Assembly: GCA_017853245.1 (NCBI GenBank)
Contig: JAFMJY010000017.1
Coordinates: 1 to 32,938 of the forward strand
Reading direction: 5' to 3'
Origin: Burkholderiales bacterium
GTDB lineage: Bacteria; Pseudomonadota; Gammaproteobacteria; Burkholderiales; Usitatibacteraceae
Length of the DNA stretch: 32,938 bases
The notes under the pieces were generated by a model. It saw only the letters and a list, made by a program, of their open reading frames with translations, was not told the DNA's origin and did not search any database. This document shows positions 19,850-31,470 of this stretch, in pieces. The position numbers and the translations under genes were made by a program. Position 1 is the stretch's first letter; the number at the start of each line of letters is the position of its first letter.

Positions 19850-21042
19850 GCGAGGCAACGCGCAAGGGCATCGTCATCCTCGGTGCCACGGGCTCGATCG
19901 GCGAGTCGACGCTCGACGTGGTGTCCCGGCACCCGAACCGCTTCGAGGTCGTGGCGCTCGCCGCGAACCGTAACCACGAAAAGCTTGCAGCCCTGTGCCG
20001 CCGCTTCCGACCGGAGGTGGCCGCCATGGCGGATGCAACCGCGGCGGAGCGGCTCGATAAAGCCCTCCGAGCCGAAGGCCTGGGCACTCGCGTGCTGGGC
20101 GGGCCCGATTCGCTGCCAGCCGTGGCGGCGCATGAGCGAGCTCACGCGGTGGTTGCCGCAGTCGTCGGTGCGGCCGGCCTTCCGGGCACGCTCGCTGCCG
20201 CGCGCGCGGGCAAGGACGTCCTGCTCGCCAACAAGGAGGCGCTGGTGGTGGCGGGCGAGCTTTTCCTTCGCGAGCTGGCCGCTGGCGGCGGCGCGTTGCT
20301 GCCTGTCGACAGCGAGCACTCAGCGATCTTCCAGTCGCTGCCCGACGGCTTCGTGTGCGGGCGCGCGGGCGAGTCCGAGCGCGCGGGGGTTCGGAGAATT
20401 CTGCTCACCGCCTCCGGTGGCCCCTTCCGCGAGCGCTCTGTCGGCACCCTGAGCGCGGTGACGCCGGATGAGGCCTGCGCGCATCCAAACTGGGTGATGG
20501 GCCGAAAGATCTCCGTCGATTCAGCCACGATGATGAACAAGGGCCTCGAGGTCATCGAGGCGTTCTGGCTTTTCGGGGCGCCGCGCGAGGCGATCGAGAT
20601 CGTCGTGCACCCGCAAAGCGTCGTCCACTCGATGGTCGAGTACCAGGACGGCTCCGTGATCGCGCAGCTGGGCGCGCCCGACATGCGCACGCCCATCGCT
20701 TGCGCGCTTGCCTGGCCCCACCGCATCGATGCCGGCGTTCGCCCCGTCGACTTCGCAACCCTGGGACGCCTCGATTTCGGCGGCGTGGACAGCGCGCGAT
20801 TCCCCTGCGTAGCGCTCGCCTACGCTGCGCTCAAGCGGGGCGGCACGGCGCCCGCCATCCTCAATGCCGCAAACGAAGTGGCGGTCGATCGTTTCCTCGC
20901 GGGCGCGCTGGCTTTTGACGCCATTCCGCGCGTGATCGAGGCCGCCCTCGCCGCCGTGACGCCCGCGCCGCTTGCCTCGCTGGAGGACGCCTGGGCGGCC
21001 GACCGTGCCGCGCGCGAAGCGGCGGGGCGCGCCGCGCGCTGA
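19846..21042 (+). CDS. dxr: 1-deoxy-D-xylulose 5-phosphate reductoisomerase
   Basis: Second step of the MEP isoprenoid pathway, converting DXP to 2-C-methylerythritol 4-phosphate with NADPH. The 398-residue protein starts with the NADPH-binding IVILGATGSIGESTLDVVS. LLPVDSEHSAIFQ provides the metal-binding Asp and Glu, and KISVDSATMMNKGLEVIEA is the conserved active-site segment with the second Glu. The ATG at 19846 overlaps cdsA by 4 bases; further upstream in-frame starts lie inside cdsA. Its product ultimately feeds the prenyl carrier made by UppS, encoded two genes upstream. Confidence 0.98.
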   Translation: MSEATRKGIVILGATGSIGESTLDVVSRHPNRFEVVALAANRNHEKLAALCRRFRPEVAAMADATAAERLDKALRAEGLGTRVLGGPDSLPAVAAHERAHAVVAAVVGAAGLPGTLAAARAGKDVLLANKEALVVAGELFLRELAAGGGALLPVDSEHSAIFQSLPDGFVCGRAGESERAGVRRILLTASGGPFRERSVGTLSAVTPDEACAHPNWVMGRKISVDSATMMNKGLEVIEAFWLFGAPREAIEIVVHPQSVVHSMVEYQDGSVIAQLGAPDMRTPIACALAWPHRIDAGVRPVDFATLGRLDFGGVDSARFPCVALAYAALKRGGTAPAILNAANEVAVDRFLAGALAFDAIPRVIEAALAAVTPAPLASLEDAWAADRAAREAAGRAAR

Positions 21043-21061
21043 AATCGGCGAGAATCGTCGC

Positions 21062-22432
21062 ATGTCCAGCGCGCTCATCACCGTCGCATCCTTCCTGCTC
21101 ACCGTAGGCCTTCTCGTGGTGGTCCACGAGCTCGGGCACTTCGCGGTTGCTCGCCTGTGCGGCGTGAAGGTGCTGCGCTTCTCCGTGGGCTTCGGGCGCA
21201 CGGTGTGGATGCGGCGCTTCGGCCCGGACCAGACGGAGTGGGCGGTTGCCGCCATCCCGCTGGGTGGCTTCGTGAAAATGCTCGATAGCCGCGAGGGACC
21301 GGTCGATGTCGCTGAGCGCGCCCGGGCGTTCGACCTCCAGCCCGTGTCCCGCCGCATCGCCATCGTGCTGGCGGGCCCGGCGGCAAACTTCATTGCGGCG
21401 TTCGCCGTGTTCTGGCTGCTCTTCGTGGTCGGGGTGCCCGGCGTGAAGGCCGTGGTGGGCGACCCGCCGGCCGGCAGCGCCGCTGCCGCAGCGCGCTTGG
21501 CAAACGGCGACACGATCCGCGCTGTGGGCGCAGAGCCCGTCGATACCTGGAACGACCTGCGCTGGCTGCTCCTCAAGGAAGCGGTGCGCCGCGGCGAGGT
21601 GGCCGTGGACGTGCAGCCCGCCGCGGGCGGCACCGTCACCCGCGCTCTCTCGCTATCCGGCCTGGAGAAGGAGGACCTGGACCGCGATTTCCTCATGAAG
21701 CTCGGCCTGCGCCCGTTCACGCCGCGCGCGCCGGCGGTGATTGGCCGCGTGCACGAGGGTGGGCCCGGCGAGATGTTGGGCCTTCGCGAGGGCGATCGCG
21801 TGCTCGCCATCGACGGCAAGCCCGTCGGCGCCTGGGGCGAGTTCACCGCAGCGGTTCGCGCAGGCGCTGGGCGTGTCCTTGCCATCGAAGTCGAGCGAGG
21901 CGGCAGGCGCCTATCGCTCACGGGCGCGCCCGAGGCCGTCGGCGAAGGCGAGTCGCGAATCGGGCGGCTGCGGGTGGAGCCGGGGCCCGAGGTTCGTCGT
22001 GAGTGGGAACGCATGACCACGACCGTCCGCCACGGCCCGCTGGATGCCGTGCCGAGGGCCGTGCACCGCGTCTGGGACCTGTCGGTGTTCAGCCTCAAGA
22101 TGCTTGGCAAGATGATCCTGGGCGAGGTGTCGTGGAAGAACCTCTCCGGGCCCATCACGATCGCCGATTACGCGGGCCAGTCGGCGCAAATGGGCTGGGT
22201 GAGCTTCGCGAGCTTTCTCGCGCTCGTGAGCGTGAGCCTCGGCGTGCTCAACCTGCTGCCGGTGCCGCTGCTCGACGGGGGGCACCTGGTGTATTATTTC
22301 GCCGAGATTTTGAAGGGGTCGCCAGTCTCCGAACGCGCGATGGAGATTGGCCAACGCGTGGGCCTTACCCTCCTCGCAGCCCTCACGCTTTTCGCCTTCT
22401 ATAACGACATCAACCGGCTCCTGACGGGTTGA
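21062..22432 (+). CDS. rseP: Site-2 zinc metalloprotease RseP
   Basis: RseP cuts anti-sigma factor RseA within the membrane in the sigma-E envelope stress response and clears signal-peptide remnants. The 456-residue protein has the zinc site VVVHELGHF with H22, E23 and H26 in the first membrane helix. GGFVKMLDSREG is the usual edge-strand region. Two tandem PDZ domains occupy the periplasmic middle (about residues 120-300), and the C-terminal NLLPVPLLDGGH near residue 397 supplies the third zinc ligand. The ATG at 21062 is chosen over an in-frame start 30 codons upstream inside dxr. bamA follows after 4 bases. Confidence 0.97.
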   Translation: MSSALITVASFLLTVGLLVVVHELGHFAVARLCGVKVLRFSVGFGRTVWMRRFGPDQTEWAVAAIPLGGFVKMLDSREGPVDVAERARAFDLQPVSRRIAIVLAGPAANFIAAFAVFWLLFVVGVPGVKAVVGDPPAGSAAAAARLANGDTIRAVGAEPVDTWNDLRWLLLKEAVRRGEVAVDVQPAAGGTVTRALSLSGLEKEDLDRDFLMKLGLRPFTPRAPAVIGRVHEGGPGEMLGLREGDRVLAIDGKPVGAWGEFTAAVRAGAGRVLAIEVERGGRRLSLTGAPEAVGEGESRIGRLRVEPGPEVRREWERMTTTVRHGPLDAVPRAVHRVWDLSVFSLKMLGKMILGEVSWKNLSGPITIADYAGQSAQMGWVSFASFLALVSVSLGVLNLLPVPLLDGGHLVYYFAEILKGSPVSERAMEIGQRVGLTLLAALTLFAFYNDINRLLTG

Positions 22433-22436
22433 TCCC

Positions 22437-24737
22437 TTGACCTCCCTCTTCCTCCGCGGCGTTCGCGCCCTGATCGCCGCCCTCTGCGTGGCTGCCGCCT
22501 TGCCGGCTGCGGCCATGCAGCCATTCACGATCCGCGACATCCGTGTCGAAGGCGTGCAGCGAACGGAGGCGGGCACGGTGTTCTCCTACCTGCCGGTCAA
22601 GATCGGCGACCGGATGGACGCGGAAAAGGCCGCCGCCGCGATCAAGGCGCTCTACGCCACCGGCTTCTACGCCGACGTCCGCCTGGAAGCCGAGGGCAGC
22701 GTGCTGGTCGTGGCCGTCCAGGAACGGCCCGCCATCGCCACCATCGATATCGAGGGCGCCAAGGAATTCAGCAAGGACAACCTGAAGGACGGCCTCAAGC
22801 AGGCCGGCATCGCGGAGGCGAAGATCTTCGACCGGTCGATCCTCGACCGGGCAGAGAAGGAGCTCAAGCGCCAGTACAACTCGCGCGGCTTCTACTCGGT
22901 CGACGTGAAGATCACCGTCACGCCGCTCGAGCGAAACCGCGTGGCGCTGCGTTTCGACATCGAGGAAGGCGAGATCACCCGCATCGCCGACATCAACATC
23001 ATCGGCGCGCAGGCCTTCAGCGAGCGCGAGATCCTGCGCCAGATCCAGCTCACCACGCCCGGCTGGCTCACCTGGATCACGAAGGACGACCAGTACTCCA
23101 AGCAGAAGCTCACCGCAGACCTCGAGACGCTCCGCTCCTTCTATCTCAACCGCGGCTACCTCGAGTTCTCCATCGACGCGACGCAGGTCTCGATCACCCC
23201 GGATCGCAGCAAGGTGTACATCGCCATCTCGATCACCGAGGGGCCGGTTTATCGCGTAGGTGAGGTGCGTCTGTCCGGCGACCTCGTGGTGGGCGAGAAG
23301 GAGTTGCGGGGCCTGATCCTGCTTCGGCCGGGCGAAACCTTCTCCCGGGAAAAGGTGGTCGAAAGCGTCAAGCGCATGACCGATCGGCTCGGCAACGATG
23401 GCTACTCGTTCGCCAACGTCAACCCGGTGCCGGACGTCGACCGCGACAAGCGCGTCGCCGCCTTCAACTTCCTGGTGGACCCGGGCCGCCGCGTATACGT
23501 TCGGCGGGTCAACGTCGTGGGCAACAGCCGCACGCAGGATGCCGTGATCCGTCGCGAGCTGCGCCAGCTGGAGTCGTCCTGGTATTCCCTCGAGAAGATC
23601 GCGCGCTCCAAGGAGCGGCTGCAGCGCACGGGCTACTTCTCCGACGTCAACATCGAGACGCCGGCGGTTCCGGGCACCCAGGACCAGGTCGATGCCGTCG
23701 TCACCGTCACGGAGCGCAACACCGGCGCGCTCAACTTCGGCGTGGGGTATTCCGACGCCGACAAGCTCACCGTCTCGGCGTCAGTCTCGCAGTCGAACAT
23801 CTTCGGGTCGGGCAACCAGCTTGCGTTTCAGGTGAACAGCGGCACGGTGAACAAGGTCTACGCCGTCACGTTCGTCAACCCCTATTTCACCGTCGATGGC
23901 GTGAGCCTTGGGGTGGACGTGTTCCGCCGCGACATCGACACGGCTTCCCTGGCGGTGTCCACCTATCAAACCTCGTCCAAGGGCGTCGGTGCCACGTTCG
24001 GCATCCCCGTGACGGAGTTCGACACGGTGCGCGCCGGCCTTACCGTCGAGAACACGCTCATCCGGATCAACGAGTTCAACTCCTCGCCCCGCTACCTCGA
24101 CTTCGTCAACCAGTTTGGCGAGCTCACCAACACCCTGCGCACCAACCTGGGCTACTCGCGTGACACGCGTGACAGCATCATCTACCCGACCAAGGGCCGG
24201 CTCACGGATATTTCCGTCGAGGTTGGCGTTCCCCCGGGGGACCTCCGGTATTACCGGGCCACGGTGCAGCAGCAGCAGCTCTTCACCCCGGAGCGCCCGG
24301 GCTGGCTCACGTTCCTCTTCAACACCGAAATCGGCCACGCCGGCGGCTTCGGCGGCAAGCCCCTGCCGTTCTTCAAGAACTTTTACGCCGGCGGCGTGGG
24401 CAGCGTGCGTGGCTTCGAGACGGCCTCGCTCGGGCCGCGCGACGCCAACGGCGACGTGCTTGGCGGCAACCGCAAGGTGATCGGCAACCTGGAGCTGCTG
24501 GTTCCGATGCCCGGCATCAAGGACAAGAGCGTGCGCCTGTCGGGCTTCATCGACACGGGCTACACCTGGGGGCCGGACCAGCGCATCCGGCTGGGCGACC
24601 TCCGCGCGTCGGCGGGGCTCGCAGCCAGCTGGGACTCGCCCGTGGGCCCGCTCAAGTTCTCCCTGAGCCAGCCGATCCGCAGCGAGACGGGCGACAAGGT
24701 GGAGCGGTTCCAGTTCCAGCTGGGCCGCATCTTCTGA
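22437..24737 (+). CDS. bamA: Outer membrane protein assembly factor BamA
   Basis: BamA is the Omp85 core of the BAM complex that folds beta-barrel proteins into the outer membrane. The 766-residue product has a Sec signal peptide (hydrophobic [15 protein letters not shown], cleavage near residue 26), five POTRA repeats from about 28 to 425 beginning [17 protein letters not shown], and a 16-strand barrel ending FQFQLGRIF with the C-terminal Phe required for recognition. The start must be the TTG at 22437, because the next ATG falls at the end of the signal peptide. There is no clear Shine-Dalgarno, so coupling to rseP 4 bases upstream is likely. The next gene is lpxD, not skp. Confidence 0.98.
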
Positions 24738-24753
24738 GCGCGGGGTCGCCGGC

Positions 24754-25785
24754 GTGAACCCGGGCCTCACCCTGCTGGAAATCGCGCGTCGCCTGGGTGG
24801 CGAAGTGGCCGGTGACTCGCAGCTGGTCGTGCGCGGCATGGCCACTCTCGAGGAGGCAGGCCCCGGAGACCTGGCCTTTCTTGCCAACAAGCGCTACCGC
24901 CGCCAGCTTGCCGACACGCGCGCGTCGGCCGTGATCCTGAGCCCCGACGACCGCGCCTTGACGACGTTGCCCTGCGTCGTGGTCACCAACCCTTACGCGG
25001 GCTATGCGCGGGTCGTCGCCATGTTCCACCCGCCCCGCAAGGCCAGGGCGGGCGTGCACCCGTCAGCCGTCATCGACCCGTCCGCAACCGTCGCCGCGAG
25101 TGCCGAAGTGGGCCCGCTTGCCCATATCGCCGCAGGCGCAGCCGTGGGCGAGGGCGCCATCATCGGCGCGGGCAGCGTGGTGGGGGAGGGGGCGCGGATC
25201 GGGGATGAGACGCAGCTCGTGTCGCGAGTGACGGTGTACGAAGCCTGTGTGATCGGCGCGCGTTGCATCGTGCATGCGGGTGCCGTGATCGGCGCTGATG
25301 GCTTCGGCATGGCGCCCGAGGGCGGCCGCTGGGTCAAGATCCCGCAGGTCGGGAGGGTCGTTGTCGGCGACGACGTCGAAATCGGCGCCAACACGGCCAT
25401 CGACCGCGGGGCGCTGGGGGACACGGTGATCGGCGAGGGCGTGAAGATCGACAACCTCGTGCAGGTGGCGCACAACGCCCGCATCGGCGCGCATACGGTC
25501 ATCGCCGGCTGCACGGCCGTGGCGGGCAGCGCCGTGATCGGGCGCCACTGCATGATCGGCGGTGCCTCGCGCATCCTCGGCCACATCACGCTGGCTGATG
25601 GCGTCACCGTCACGGGATGCTCGTTCGTCACCCGCTCAATTCGGGAGGCGGGCGTCTACTCGTCGGGCGTCCCGGCACAGCCTCACCGCCGCTGGATGCG
25701 AACGCTCGCAAGCCTGCGACGCCTTGACGGCGCCGCGGGCACAACCGACTTGCCGGGAGAAGACGATGGAACCGCTGGGCATTGA
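24754..25785 (+). CDS. lpxD: UDP-3-O-(3-hydroxyacyl)glucosamine N-acyltransferase
   Basis: Third step of lipid A synthesis: adds the second 3-hydroxyacyl chain, from acyl-ACP, to the UDP-glucosamine intermediate. The 343-residue protein has the N-terminal uridine-binding domain (GVATLEEA-like [19 protein letters not shown]), then a left-handed beta helix of hexapeptide repeats from about residue 105 ([20 protein letters not shown]). The catalytic histidine is in [18 protein letters not shown] start is used 16 bases after bamA. The last 20 bases overlap the start of fabZ. Confidence 0.97.
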
Positions 25786-26230
25786 CGACATCAAGCAGTA
25801 CATCGCGCATCGCTACCCTTTTCTGCTGATCGACCGCGTCACGGAATGGGAGGCGGGCAAGCGCATCGTGGCGCTCAAGAACGTGAGCGCCAACGAGCCT
25901 TTCTTCGCCGGCCATTTCCCGAACCAGGCGGTGATGCCAGGGGTCCTGATCATCGAGGCCATGGCGCAGGCCTCGGCGGTGCTCGCGGCCCTCACGCTGG
26001 GCAAGAAGGATGACGGCTCCAGCCTCTTTTACTTCGTGGGGATCGACAACGCCCGCTTCAAGCGTGTGGTGCGCCCCGGCGACCAGCTCACCGTCGAGGT
26101 GAACGTGCTTCGCATCGCCCGTGGGATCGGCAAGTTCACCGCCACGGCAAAGGTCGGCGACCAGCTCGCCGCCGAGGCGGAGCTTCTGTCCGCCATGCGC
26201 TCGGCGACCAAGCCGGAGGCGGGGGCGTGA
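25766..26230 (+). CDS. fabZ: 3-hydroxyacyl-ACP dehydratase FabZ
   Basis: Dehydrates 3-hydroxyacyl-ACP in fatty acid elongation, competing with lipid A synthesis for the same substrate. The 154-residue hot-dog fold shows the catalytic His in [14 protein letters not shown] and Glu within [20 protein letters not shown]. The ATG at 25766 has GGAG 6 bases upstream and begins inside the end of lpxD, a 20-base overlap that implies coupled translation. In-frame starts further upstream are in the lpxD shadow. lpxA overlaps its stop by 4 bases. Confidence 0.98.
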
Positions 26231-27003
26231 CGGGGGTTCATGCCACCGCCATCGTGGATCCCCGCGCCCGGGTCGGCGAGGGGGTCACCATCGGCCCCTA
26301 CACGGTGGTGGACGGCGACGTCGAAATCGGCGCCGGCACGACCATCGGCGCCCATAACGTCATCACCGGCCACACCACCATCGGGCGCGACAACCGCATC
26401 TTCCACTTCTGCTCGATCGGCGAGGCGAACCAGGACAAGAAATACCGAGGCGAGCCCACGCGCCTGGTGATCGGAGACCGCAACACCATTCGTGAATACG
26501 CCTCCCTCAACCGTGGCACCGTGCAGGATGCAGGCCTCACTCGCGTGGGCGACGACAACTGGATCATGGCGTATTGCCATGTCGCGCACGATTGCGTGGT
26601 GGGGAACCACACCGTGCTTGCCAATGCCGCAACGCTCGCGGGCCACGTTCACGTGGGCGACCACGCGATCCTGGGCGGGCTTGTGGGCGTGCACCAGTTC
26701 GTGCGCATCGGCGCCCACGTCATGGTGGGCGGCGCCTCCCTCGTCCTGCAGGATGTCCCGCCGTTCGTGATGGTGTCGGGCCACCCCTGCGCGCCGCACG
26801 GCATCAACTCGGAAGGGCTCAAGCGTCGTGGCTTCGGCCCGGAGAAGGTGGCGGCCATCAAGCGCGCGTACCGCACGCTGTATCGTGAAGGGCTGTCCCT
26901 CGAGGAGGCAAAGGCCGCGCTCGCCGCCCAGGCGGCCGAGTCCCCGGAAGTGGTCCCGCTCGTGGAGTTTCTCGCGGCATCCAGCCGCGGCATCGTGCGC
27001 TAG
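26227..27003 (+). CDS. lpxA: Acyl-ACP:UDP-N-acetylglucosamine O-acyltransferase
   Basis: First step of lipid A synthesis. The 258-residue protein is nearly all hexapeptide repeats in the first 190 residues ([20 protein letters not shown] onward), then a C-terminal helical domain. The catalytic His lies in [33 protein letters not shown] is the acyl-binding wall region. The GTG start overlaps fabZ as GTGA. It is one of the closely packed lpxD-fabZ-lpxA-lpxB genes typical of Gram-negative bacteria. Confidence 0.98.
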
Positions 27004-27006
27004 GCC

Positions 27007-28176
27007 GTGGCGATTCGTATAGGCATCGTCGCGGGCGAGGCCTCCGGGGACCTGCTGGGGGCTGCGTTGGTGCGCGCCGTGCGAAGCCAATATCCCGACG
27101 CGGATTTTTATGGCATCGCCGGCCCGGGTATGCAGGCTGCAGGCGCGCGCACGCTCGTCCCGATGGAAAAGCTTTCAGTACGTGGCTACGTCGAGGCACT
27201 GCGGAGCCTGCCGGAGCTGTTTCGCATCCGCGGTCGCCTGGCGAGCCAATTCCTGCAGGACCGGCCGGATCTCTTCATCGGCGTCGACGCGCCCGACTTC
27301 AATCTTGGGCTGGAGCGTCGCCTGAAGCGCGCCGGGATCCACACCGTGCATTACGTGAGCCCGTCGGTGTGGGGCTGGCGCCCGGGGCGCATGGACGGCA
27401 TCCGGAAGGCGGTAGACCACGTGCTCACGGTCTTTCCGTTCGAGGATGCCCTGTACCGCAAGGCGGGCATTGCCTCGACCTTCGTCGGGCACCCGCTGGC
27501 CGACCAGTTGCCGCTCACGCCGGCCCGTGACGAGGCGAGGCGCCAGTTGCGCCTGCCCCTGGGGCAGAAAGTGGTGGCGCTCCTGCCGGGCAGCCGGATG
27601 AGCGAGATCCAGGCACACGCAGACCTCTACCTCGAGACGGCGCGCCAGCTGGCCTTGCGCATGCCGGAGGCGCGCTTCCTGGTGCCGCTCGCCACTCGCG
27701 AAACGCGGGAGGCTTTCGAGAGGCGCCTCTATGCCCGCGACGCGGAATCCCTCAACCTCACCATCCTCTTTGGCCACGCTCGGCTGGCGCTGCAGGCGGC
27801 CGACGTCGGCCTGGTGGCGAGCGGCACTGCCACGCTCGAGGCGGCGCTGGCGCGTTGCCCGATGGTGATCACCTACCGCGTGCCGGGCCTCACCTATCGC
27901 CTCATGCTGCGTTCGGCGATCATTCCCTACGCGGGCCTGCCCAACATCCTGTCCGGCGAGTTCATCGTTCCGGAGATCCTTCAGGATCAGGCCACGGCCG
28001 CGAACCTCGCGCAGGCGCTTGGCAACTGGATGTCGCACAAGGAGGCGCGGGCGCTGCTGGAGGCGCGCTACGAGGCGATGCATCGCTCGCTCAAGCGCGA
28101 CAATGCCGATTGCGTGTTGCGCGCCCTTGCGCCGTTTCTCGAGGGCGCGGCAGGCCCCCATGCCCGTGCCGCCTGA
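27007..28176 (+). CDS. lpxB: Lipid A disaccharide synthase
   Basis: LpxB joins UDP-diacylglucosamine and lipid X to give the tetraacyl disaccharide 1-phosphate. It is a peripheral GT-B (GT19) glycosyltransferase of 389 residues. [20 protein letters not shown] opens the N-terminal domain, [14 protein letters not shown] is the substrate-binding signature, and [19 protein letters not shown] lies in the UDP-binding C-terminal domain. A GTG start is 3 bases after lpxA. Its end overlaps rnhB by 17 bases. Confidence 0.97.
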
Positions 28177-28762: not shown

Positions 28763-29535
28763 AGCGAATTGCCTCGCGAGACAACCCTGCATTCAAGTCG
28801 CTGGCGAGGCTGCTTGCGTCTGCCGCCGAACGACGACGACAAAACGCGTCGTTGATCGAGGGCCCCAACCTGGTTTCCGGTTGCCTCGATGCGGGGCACT
28901 CGGTCGAGCAGCTGGTCTTGTCGGACGCCTTCGCCGAGACGGCCGAAGCCGAGGCGCTGCGTGCGCGCCTTCCCGGTGTGACTTGCCTGCGGATGCCGCA
29001 GGCCCTCTTCGCCAAGCTGAGTGGGCTTGCCACCCCGTCGGGCGTGCTTGCCGTGGTGCCCACGCCGGCAGGCCGCCCCGTGCCGTCCAGCGCGCGCTTC
29101 TGCCTCGCGCTCGAGGACGTGCAGGACCCTGGCAATGTGGGGACGCTGTTGCGGGCCGCGGCCGCGGCCGGCGTCGAGCATGTCTTGCTTTCGCCCGGCT
29201 GCTCCTTTGCCTGGGCGCCGAAGGTGTTGCGCGCGGCGCAGGGCGCGCATTTCGTGCTCAATATCGTCGAGAGCTGCGACCTCGACGCCTTTCTGCGGCG
29301 CTTTTCCGGCGCTTCGGTCGCGCTCAGCGGAGCGGCTCCGGAAAGCCTCTATGACGTCGACCTGCGAGGGCCGCTGGCCATCGTGGTGGGCAACGAGGGG
29401 CAGGGCCTTTCAGCCGGGCTGCAGGGGCTTGCTGGCAGGCGTGCCCGCATTCCCATGCCCGGGAAGGCAGAGAGCCTGAATGCGGCGGTGGCGGGAGCAG
29501 TGGCCCTCTTCGAGGCCGTCCGGCAGCGCCGCTAG
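28759..29535 (+). CDS. TrmH/SpoU-family RNA 2'-O-methyltransferase
   Basis: A 258-residue SPOUT methyltransferase that should methylate a ribose in rRNA or tRNA. The N-terminal substrate-binding domain ([20 protein letters not shown]) is followed by the three SpoU motifs: [32 protein letters not shown] and [20 protein letters not shown], which build the knotted SAM site. The exact target nucleotide cannot be read from the sequence. The GTG start overlaps the rnhB stop by 4 bases. It is the last gene of the fifteen-gene cluster and ends next to a convergent hairpin. Confidence 0.92.
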
Positions 29536-29562
29536 CCGGGCGCGACTTGCGCCGCGCCCGGC
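29535..29562. terminator. Perfect 10-bp hairpin between two convergent genes
   Basis: GCCGGGCGCG (29535-29544) pairs perfectly with CGCGCCCGGC (29553-29562) around an 8-base loop. The stem begins on the last base of the RNA methyltransferase stop and ends 10 bases before the esterase stop, so it could serve both strands. No T run follows on either strand, so it may act as an RNA 3' barrier or with Rho rather than as a classical intrinsic terminator. Confidence 0.55.
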
Positions 29563-29571
29563 CGGGCAGGG

Positions 29572-31470
29572 TCAGAACCGGACCGATACCGTGGCGGAGA
29601 TGGAGTCCTCGCTCACGCCTTGTCGGCTGTTCACCTTGGTGTACTGCAGGCCGTAGCCCAGCCAGCCCTCGATCGTGCCGCGCAGGCCGCCCGTCATCGT
29701 GATGAACGAGTTGTCGGCGGGCTGGTAGGCGGCGATGTCGTAGCTGTTCCCAGTGGAGAGCGACAGCGGCGTGGCGGTCACGAAGCGCTCGGACTTGGCG
29801 CGCTCGCGGTCGGCCGTGACACGGATGTACGGGGTGACGCTGCCGAGGTTGTACGAGGCGCGCACGCCGATGCCGGCGACTTCCGAGCGGCGAGTCTGGG
29901 AGTCGACCTTGAGCCCCGCCGAGCCGCCGCCGGATTCCGAGAAGCCCTCGACCTCGACGTTTTGGGAGGTCCAGGTCACGGCCGGCCCGACCGACAGCTT
30001 GTCGATGGTGAAGTCGTAGCCACCCTGCAGGGAGAAGGAGGAGTTGGAGCCGTCCGTGCTGGCGCGGGCGATGCGGTTGGAGACGCCCAGGGCAATGTTG
30101 CGCTCGACCTTGCGGAAGTCCGTTTGCGACAGGCTGCCGATGACGGTGCCGTAGAAGCCCTTGTGCTTCACGCTCGCAAACGCGGAGTAGGCCACTTCGG
30201 CAGCCTCGTAGCTGCCGAGGTTGCCGCCGAAATTGCCCTGGCCGCGGACGCGCCCGATGCCCAGGCCCAGCGTGGCTGCCTCGCTCGCCCGCATCGTCAC
30301 CCCCATGCCGTAGGAGCGGTTGGTGGCGTTGAGGCCATCCGTGCCGTTGCCACGGGCGATCTCGAAGCCGCCGTCGCCCACCGAGGCGAATGCCGCCAGG
30401 CGGCCAACCTTGGCCGATTGGCCCTGGGCGAGGCCATCGTTGATCGTCTGCACGTAGGCGCTACGCATGGCGAGCGGGGCCTCGGCGAGCAGCGAGTAGG
30501 CCGTGGGGCCTTCGATCAGCGACTTCGTGAAATCCGAGATGACGCGGTGGGCGCCAGTGGTCGGGTGCACGCTGTCGGCAAACGCGTAGGTGTTCTCCGC
30601 GTTGGGCGCGACGGTGTTCACGCCGGCGATGCAGAACTGGGCGCTGGCCGATGTCGTGATCGGCGGGAAGGGGCCGCAGGCCGGCGTCGTGATGTTGGTG
30701 AACCCGAACGAGGCCGGGTTGGTGCGGATCTCGGTGAACAGGGCGAACATGTCGACCGGGATCGGGCGCAACCCGGCGGTGCGAAGGCCCGCGAAGAGGG
30801 TCAGGTTATAGCCCGCGGCGGCCTGGCTGGCCTGGGCGCTGGCGGCGGCGCCGGAACTGAGCGCGAACGGCGTGCCTCCCAGGTCCGGCAGTGAAAAGAC
30901 GAGCACGTAGCGCGCGCCAGCTCCAAAGAGCCGGCCGATCTGGCCTACCTCGGCCTGCGCAGCCCCCAGGAACGCCGCCTGGAATTGGTCTGGCGTGATC
31001 TGGCCAGCGCCGAGACGGCTGAAGTTGTTCAGGAAGTCGTTGCCGCCAGCCCAGACGGCAAAGAGCGCGTTGGGGTCTGCGCGGCCGCCACTGCGCTGGA
31101 GATATTCGGTGATCTGAACCGAGACCGGCCGCTGGGCGAAGCCGGGCGGCGTGCTGGGGGAGTCGGTCGCGACCGTGGCGCCGCCCTGGGCGTAGATCCA
31201 GCCGCCTGCGTTCGAGGCGCCCGGCGTCACGCCGTAGTACTGGGAGATCAACTCGGACCAGACGGGGCCCGGGTTGGTGGTGAAGCGCCCCAGCGTGGCG
31301 ACGGTGGGCCCCGGCAGGCCGATGGCGGCCAGGAAGGGTCGGAAGTAACCCGCGTCGGACAGGCTGTCCCCGAACACCACGACGTTGGAGAATTTCGCGG
31401 CTTGGGCAGTGGGCGTGGCGACGGCGAGAGACAGCAACAAGGCGCTAAGGGCGCGGCGGACGGGCTTCAT
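29572..31470 (-). CDS. GDSL/SGNH esterase autotransporter (EstA-like)
   Basis: A 632-residue type Va secretion protein. A signal peptide (SALLLSLAVATPTAQA, cleavage near residue 24) is followed by a GDSL hydrolase passenger. FGDSLSDAG gives the nucleophile S36, an oxyanion glycine lies in YAQGGATV, the block III Asn is in GGNDFL, and the catalytic Asp and His are in DSVHPTTGAH. Two cysteines (ACGPFPP and AQFC), the only pair visible in the passenger, could form a disulfide. The last 280 or so residues form an autotransporter beta barrel (SYGMGVTMRASEAATLGLG onward) ending SISATVSVRF with the C-terminal Phe. An AGGAG lies 8 bases before the ATG. By analogy with EstA it would display a lipase or esterase on the cell surface; the substrate is not known. 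Confidence 0.92.
   Translation of the reverse strand: MKPVRRALSALLLSLAVATPTAQAAKFSNVVVFGDSLSDAGYFRPFLAAIGLPGPTVATLGRFTTNPGPVWSELISQYYGVTPGASNAGGWIYAQGGATVATDSPSTPPGFAQRPVSVQITEYLQRSGGRADPNALFAVWAGGNDFLNNFSRLGAGQITPDQFQAAFLGAAQAEVGQIGRLFGAGARYVLVFSLPDLGGTPFALSSGAAASAQASQAAAGYNLTLFAGLRTAGLRPIPVDMFALFTEIRTNPASFGFTNITTPACGPFPPITTSASAQFCIAGVNTVAPNAENTYAFADSVHPTTGAHRVISDFTKSLIEGPTAYSLLAEAPLAMRSAYVQTINDGLAQGQSAKVGRLAAFASVGDGGFEIARGNGTDGLNATNRSYGMGVTMRASEAATLGLGIGRVRGQGNFGGNLGSYEAAEVAYSAFASVKHKGFYGTVIGSLSQTDFRKVERNIALGVSNRIARASTDGSNSSFSLQGGYDFTIDKLSVGPAVTWTSQNVEVEGFSESGGGSAGLKVDSQTRRSEVAGIGVRASYNLGSVTPYIRVTADRERAKSERFVTATPLSLSTGNSYDIAAYQPADNSFITMTGGLRGTIEGWLGYGLQYTKVNSRQGVSEDSISATVSVRF

Follow-up and report, generated by a model that had tools for sequence, protein, structure and literature searches.

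Likely loss of skp from between bamA and lpxD in one species of a genus that keeps the gene

Results

The bamA-lpxD junction

Skp is a chaperone that holds outer-membrane proteins while they are unfolded and keeps them from clumping. The features that surround its usual position in the window (the whole stretch of 32,938 nucleotides that was analysed) are collected in Table 1, and the gene order around the junction is rseP, bamA, lpxD, fabZ, lpxA, lpxB. Read directly from the sequence, the TGA stop codon of bamA occupies positions 24735-24737 and lpxD starts with GTG at 24754. An earlier note on this DNA had placed the end of bamA at 24737 and the start of lpxD at 24754, with no room for skp, and these coordinates are exact. 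The spacer is without a reading frame, no Skp homologue is found at this ancestral site, and RNA structure in the 16 bases is unremarkable (z -0.98). Both flanking genes are whole. BamA passes the NCBIfam equivalog model TIGR03303 with 859.5 bits (cut-off 297.15), LpxD passes TIGR01853, also an equivalog model, with 377.2 bits (cut-off 242.5), and the C-terminal end of BamA agrees with the BamA ends of relatives. In the window 32 bases separate the end of the BamA barrel match from the start of LpxD homology, whereas in seven relatives the same distance is 557-681 bases. The absence of skp from the junction is more than chance, given that skp occupies this place in all seven congeners and in 76 of 80 named loci. 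Downstream, the true start of fabZ probably lies inside the open frame given in the table, because the FabA match begins at residue 82.

Table 1. Positions of the features discussed, numbered from the first letter of the window
Feature	Coordinates	Strand	Evidence
rseP, site-2 protease upstream of bamA	20972..22432	+	Peptidase_M50 223.5 bits, PDZ
bamA, outer-membrane protein assembly factor	22437..24737	+	TTG-start frame, 766 aa; five POTRA stretches, Omp85, TIGR03303
bamA-lpxD spacer, skp site in relatives	24738..24753	.	16 bases; read directly
lpxD	24754..25785	+	GTG start, 343 aa; TIGR01853; 67-72% identical to congeners
fabZ open frame	25562..26230	+	FabA domain 121 bits
lpxA	26227..27003	+	Acetyltransf_11, Hexapep
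lpxB	27007..28176	+	LpxB 340.7 bits
GDSL-lipase autotransporter	29572..31470	-	Autotransporter beta-domain 101.9 bits, Lipase_GDSL 59.7 bits

The search for skp elsewhere in the genome

The genome to which the window belongs comprises 2,751,320 bases in 202 contigs and is given as 98.72% complete and 2.48% contaminated. The search with an OmpH profile that the earlier note had proposed was carried out with Pfam OmpH (PF03938) and returned no match in this 98.72% complete assembly of 202 contigs. A second profile was built from 15 aligned Skp proteins of the same family, six of them from congeners. It matched all seven congeners with E values of 4e-88 to 4e-83, and it was sensitive enough to pick up Skp fragments of 35 and 47 residues at the contig ends of two other genomes of the order, G065 and G203. 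In the window's genome it gave a single weak match, with an E value of 0.2. This match falls in an AraC-type regulator, whose frame carries an AraC-type helix-turn-helix together with a DJ-1/PfpI domain, and was rejected as a diverged or hidden skp; neither PF03938 nor the family profile lends support to such a gene in the assembly. Skp is conserved among the congeners, five of the proteins being 87-96% identical to a sixth, and a relocated copy would therefore be easily seen. The suggestion that skp had simply moved elsewhere is thus unsupported within the assembly. A comparison of congener Skp with a plasmid collection matched 10 records, all at less than 60% identity, and is not informative on the present species.

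Distribution of skp

The named relatives, which we take to be the Usitatibacteraceae of GTDB, include the isolates FeB_7, TGS_PRO46, JPNG_maxbin.109 and BP07 and the complete genome of strain GR16-43; the congeners are presumably the genus FEB-7. In all seven congeners a Skp match lies between the BamA and LpxD matches on the same contig. A BamA scan of the named genomes yielded at least 287 loci, of which the best 80 were taken. Among these best 80, skp is next after bamA in 77, and in the remaining three the contigs end 44-145 bases past the bamA match. An LpxD match follows Skp in 76 of the 80, at a distance of 13-329 bases except for 1,019 bases in one locus (L108); in another (L111) skp is present and the LpxD match is absent from the locus. 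Of the 28 genomes of the family, 16 were searched with OmpH and 15 of these matched, namely the seven congeners and all eight other members tested; the sole non-match was the window's own. It had been asked whether the clean junction is common to the whole family. The congeners, the family genomes and the named loci rule this out, and among the genomes sampled the junction without skp is specific to this species within its genus.

At the level of the order, OmpH matched 289 of 300 genomes (the window's own being among the 300), 288 of them over the cut-off, and 262 of 270 in the good-quality subset. LpxD was searched in the ten non-matching genomes other than our own and in G065, where the OmpH match was weak. 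In seven (G006, G033, G122, G193, G212, G244 and G276) no convincing LpxD was found and the skp site is therefore unreadable, and in G203 and G065 a contig end interrupts skp. In G168 (contig 113, L090) LpxD is present, with no BamA within the 1.5 kb read upstream. The Skp-profile and SurA_N searches covered the eight of these 11 genomes that are at least 90% complete. G168 gave no Skp match and a weak SurA_N match (67.3 bits). G244 (1.3 Mb, 99% complete) has no Skp and no LpxD match, with SurA and DegP present; this segment of lipid A synthesis may be absent from its lineage, or the assembly may have missed the locus. Apparent absences of skp are thus seldom readable, since of the 11 genomes in 300 without an OmpH match only two, our own and G089, present a readable bamA-lpxD junction without skp.

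G089 is a member of the order represented by a single contig of 1.6 Mb, given as 100% complete, in which bamA is followed after 112 bases by lpxD (contig 1, about 677205-681600; L091, L190). No Skp was detected in it, the best family-profile match having an E value of 0.011 over 40 positions of an 827-residue frame, and it alone among the eight genomes searched was without a SurA_N match. Its DegP-like protease scores 366.2 bits, under the family cut-off of 416.2. The PDB chains nearest to its BamA are 9cmw (723 bits) and 4k3b (718 bits), the latter presumably from Neisseria, and the next chain scores 429. Its junction resembles that of the window in that bamA stands directly before lpxD with no Skp match, and differs in coming from a distant lineage, in a stretch of low G+C (0.34), and in a genome with no SurA_N match. 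Its clean junction is independent of that in the window.

Remaining chaperones and their clients

SurA_N matches were obtained in all eight genomes of the genus, the window's own included. In the latter, the SurA frame comes after lptD and carries a SurA_N match of 126 bits and two Rotamase (PPIase) stretches. The frame is truncated C-terminally by the contig end and its 230.2 bits fall below the cut-off of 394 for the NCBIfam SurA model, perhaps because it is both cut and distant. A DegP-type protease of 482 aa passes TIGR02037 with 475.8 bits (cut-off 416.2). The genome and three congeners each have one match over this cut-off; the remaining four congeners have two apiece. The genes for TamA, TamB and LptD are present, and outer-membrane proteins that would be clients are still encoded. 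Besides LptD and a patatin-Omp85 protein beside tamA/tamB, these include the autotransporter at 29572-31470, an assignment already made in the earlier note and confirmed here by the Pfam Autotransporter and GDSL lipase matches; it is likely a client of periplasmic chaperones.

Inspection by eye showed that the readable parts of the congener contigs are collinear with the window, and the difference in gene order that was seen concerns the patatin-Omp85 gene, which in three congeners follows rlmB and in two of these stands beside a frame of 269 or 335 residues without a Pfam match. In the window rlmB and the autotransporter are only 37 bases apart (29535-29572), and the patatin-Omp85 gene is found instead by tamA/tamB on another contig (C197). 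The loci compared were L182:6537-9553, L185:11228-14448, L183:16724-18949 and L209:5131-7470. A linked loss of outer-membrane load was considered and rejected, since the gene that is absent after rlmB sits beside tamA/tamB.

Timing of the probable loss

A tree was made from the bamA barrel and lpxD of this species, six congeners and skp-bearing relatives outside the genus; the seventh congener (G300) was omitted on account of an lpxD broken across contigs. The species is sister to the six congeners with a support of 81, supports inside the genus being 55-100. Its branch is 0.33 long, compared with 0.02-0.14 for the congener tips, part of which reflects the lack of a nearer sampled relative, and its root-to-tip distance is 0.76 versus 0.62-0.71 for the congeners. 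From the sister position, and because both the congeners and the outgroups bear skp, it follows that the loss is derived and took place on the species' own branch. The assembly measures 2.75 Mb versus 3.2-3.9 Mb in the seven congeners, a difference that fits gene loss without proving it.

Discussion

The explanation that we favor is that a deletion between bamA and lpxD removed skp on this species' own branch and left both neighbours intact. Outer-membrane proteins, the autotransporter at 29572-31470 included, would then most likely reach the BAM complex by way of SurA, and DegP may hold or degrade those that go astray. We consider it probable, with some room for doubt, that the deletion took place in the living organism and is no fault of assembly; a true loss is likely, on the evidence of a 202-contig assembly and one genome of the species.

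The most serious competitor is an artefact, in which some 550 bases carrying skp were dropped during metagenome assembly and the living cell has the gene in its place. The genome is fragmented and is the one assembly of its species. Elsewhere in the order, contig ends account for the absence in G203 and for the weak match in G065, and seven of the ten other non-matching genomes are without a convincing LpxD, so that the site is unreadable there. Here, however, the join is internal to a 33-kb contig, coincides exactly with the two spacers and leaves both genes whole. Further, in seven relatives direct repeats across skp reach 7-11 bases at most, which would give an assembler little to merge on. 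Taken together, these observations make an artefact improbable. These 7-11-base repeats are not taken as evidence of a deletion by recombination between short repeats.

It might also be argued that skp relocated and now resides in an unassembled portion of the genome, since the assembly may fall short of the expected genome by about 1.3% and the differing position of the patatin-Omp85 gene relative to three congeners indicates that relocation happens in this lineage. However, a moved copy would need to fall in that small missing part, and wherever the named loci among the best 80 are not cut, skp adjoins bamA; we regard such a move as very unlikely. Equally implausible is a replacement, in which an unrelated periplasmic chaperone took over the role of Skp. 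The clients do persist (the autotransporter, LptD, the patatin-Omp85 protein and TamA), but no candidate was noticed and SurA and DegP would suffice, because Skp is described as subsidiary in several species in the available text of PMC9578438.

To return to the deletion of skp, the earlier note had raised the prospect that this lineage folds its outer-membrane proteins with SurA, DegP or another chaperone. The genes for SurA and DegP are indeed present, and from that presence we infer that their products do the work of Skp in this organism. The available portion of PMC9578438 reports that Skp is dispensable in the species tested there, that it is subsidiary to SurA in most of them, with Neisseria meningitidis relying on it as the main chaperone, and that combined loss of surA and skp is something that N. 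meningitidis and A. baumannii tolerate and E. coli does not. This literature on dispensability makes life with SurA and DegP and without Skp plausible. The absence of skp is accordingly best described as a gene loss of a known type, in which a backup chaperone has gone at the level of one species. No paper on a bamA-lpxD junction without skp was recognised in the literature, as judged from titles and the opening lines of abstracts, and searches under the family or genus name returned nothing useful; PMC9992710, in the part available, concerns a symbiont that has skp.

The present case offers a natural test of the dispensability of Skp, at the level of a species and inside a genus that keeps the gene. 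G089, where Skp and SurA_N both go undetected in a genome of one contig, is more striking than this species-level loss and offers the better starting point for defining the minimum needs of BAM. A wider generalization, which we put forward tentatively and think rather unlikely to hold, is that Skp has been lost occasionally and independently in Betaproteobacteria with a working outer membrane. The present species, which still encodes a patatin-Omp85 protein and an autotransporter, would be one example and the closed, Neisseria-like G089 another; in G089 SurA would have gone as well, and outer-membrane proteins would reach BAM through the DegP-like protease alone or a chaperone not yet known.

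Comparison with known systems places the junction in context. The complete genome of GR16-43 (CP019169, locus L105) is an example of the bamA-skp-lpxD-fabZ-lpxA-lpxB block of Betaproteobacteria, and the window has the same order and strands; GR16-43 has Skp at this locus (291 bits), whereas the window does not. Among bacteria that live without Skp, the available text of PMC9578438 describes skp knockouts of Acinetobacter baumannii AB5075, which are viable, as is even the surA skp degP triple mutant. These differ from the present species in being deliberate knockouts in a gammaproteobacterium, in which the other two chaperones are removed only in the multiple mutants. Natural losses are also on record, for according to the part of PMC2635482 available to us Skp occurs in all proteobacterial groups and is absent from cyanobacteria, and Anaplasma and Ehrlichia are without SurA. 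These Alphaproteobacteria and cyanobacteria resemble the present organism as bacteria with an outer membrane that dispense with Skp or SurA. In those cases, as that source presents them, whole groups lack the chaperone, whereas here it is one species in a genus that keeps skp.
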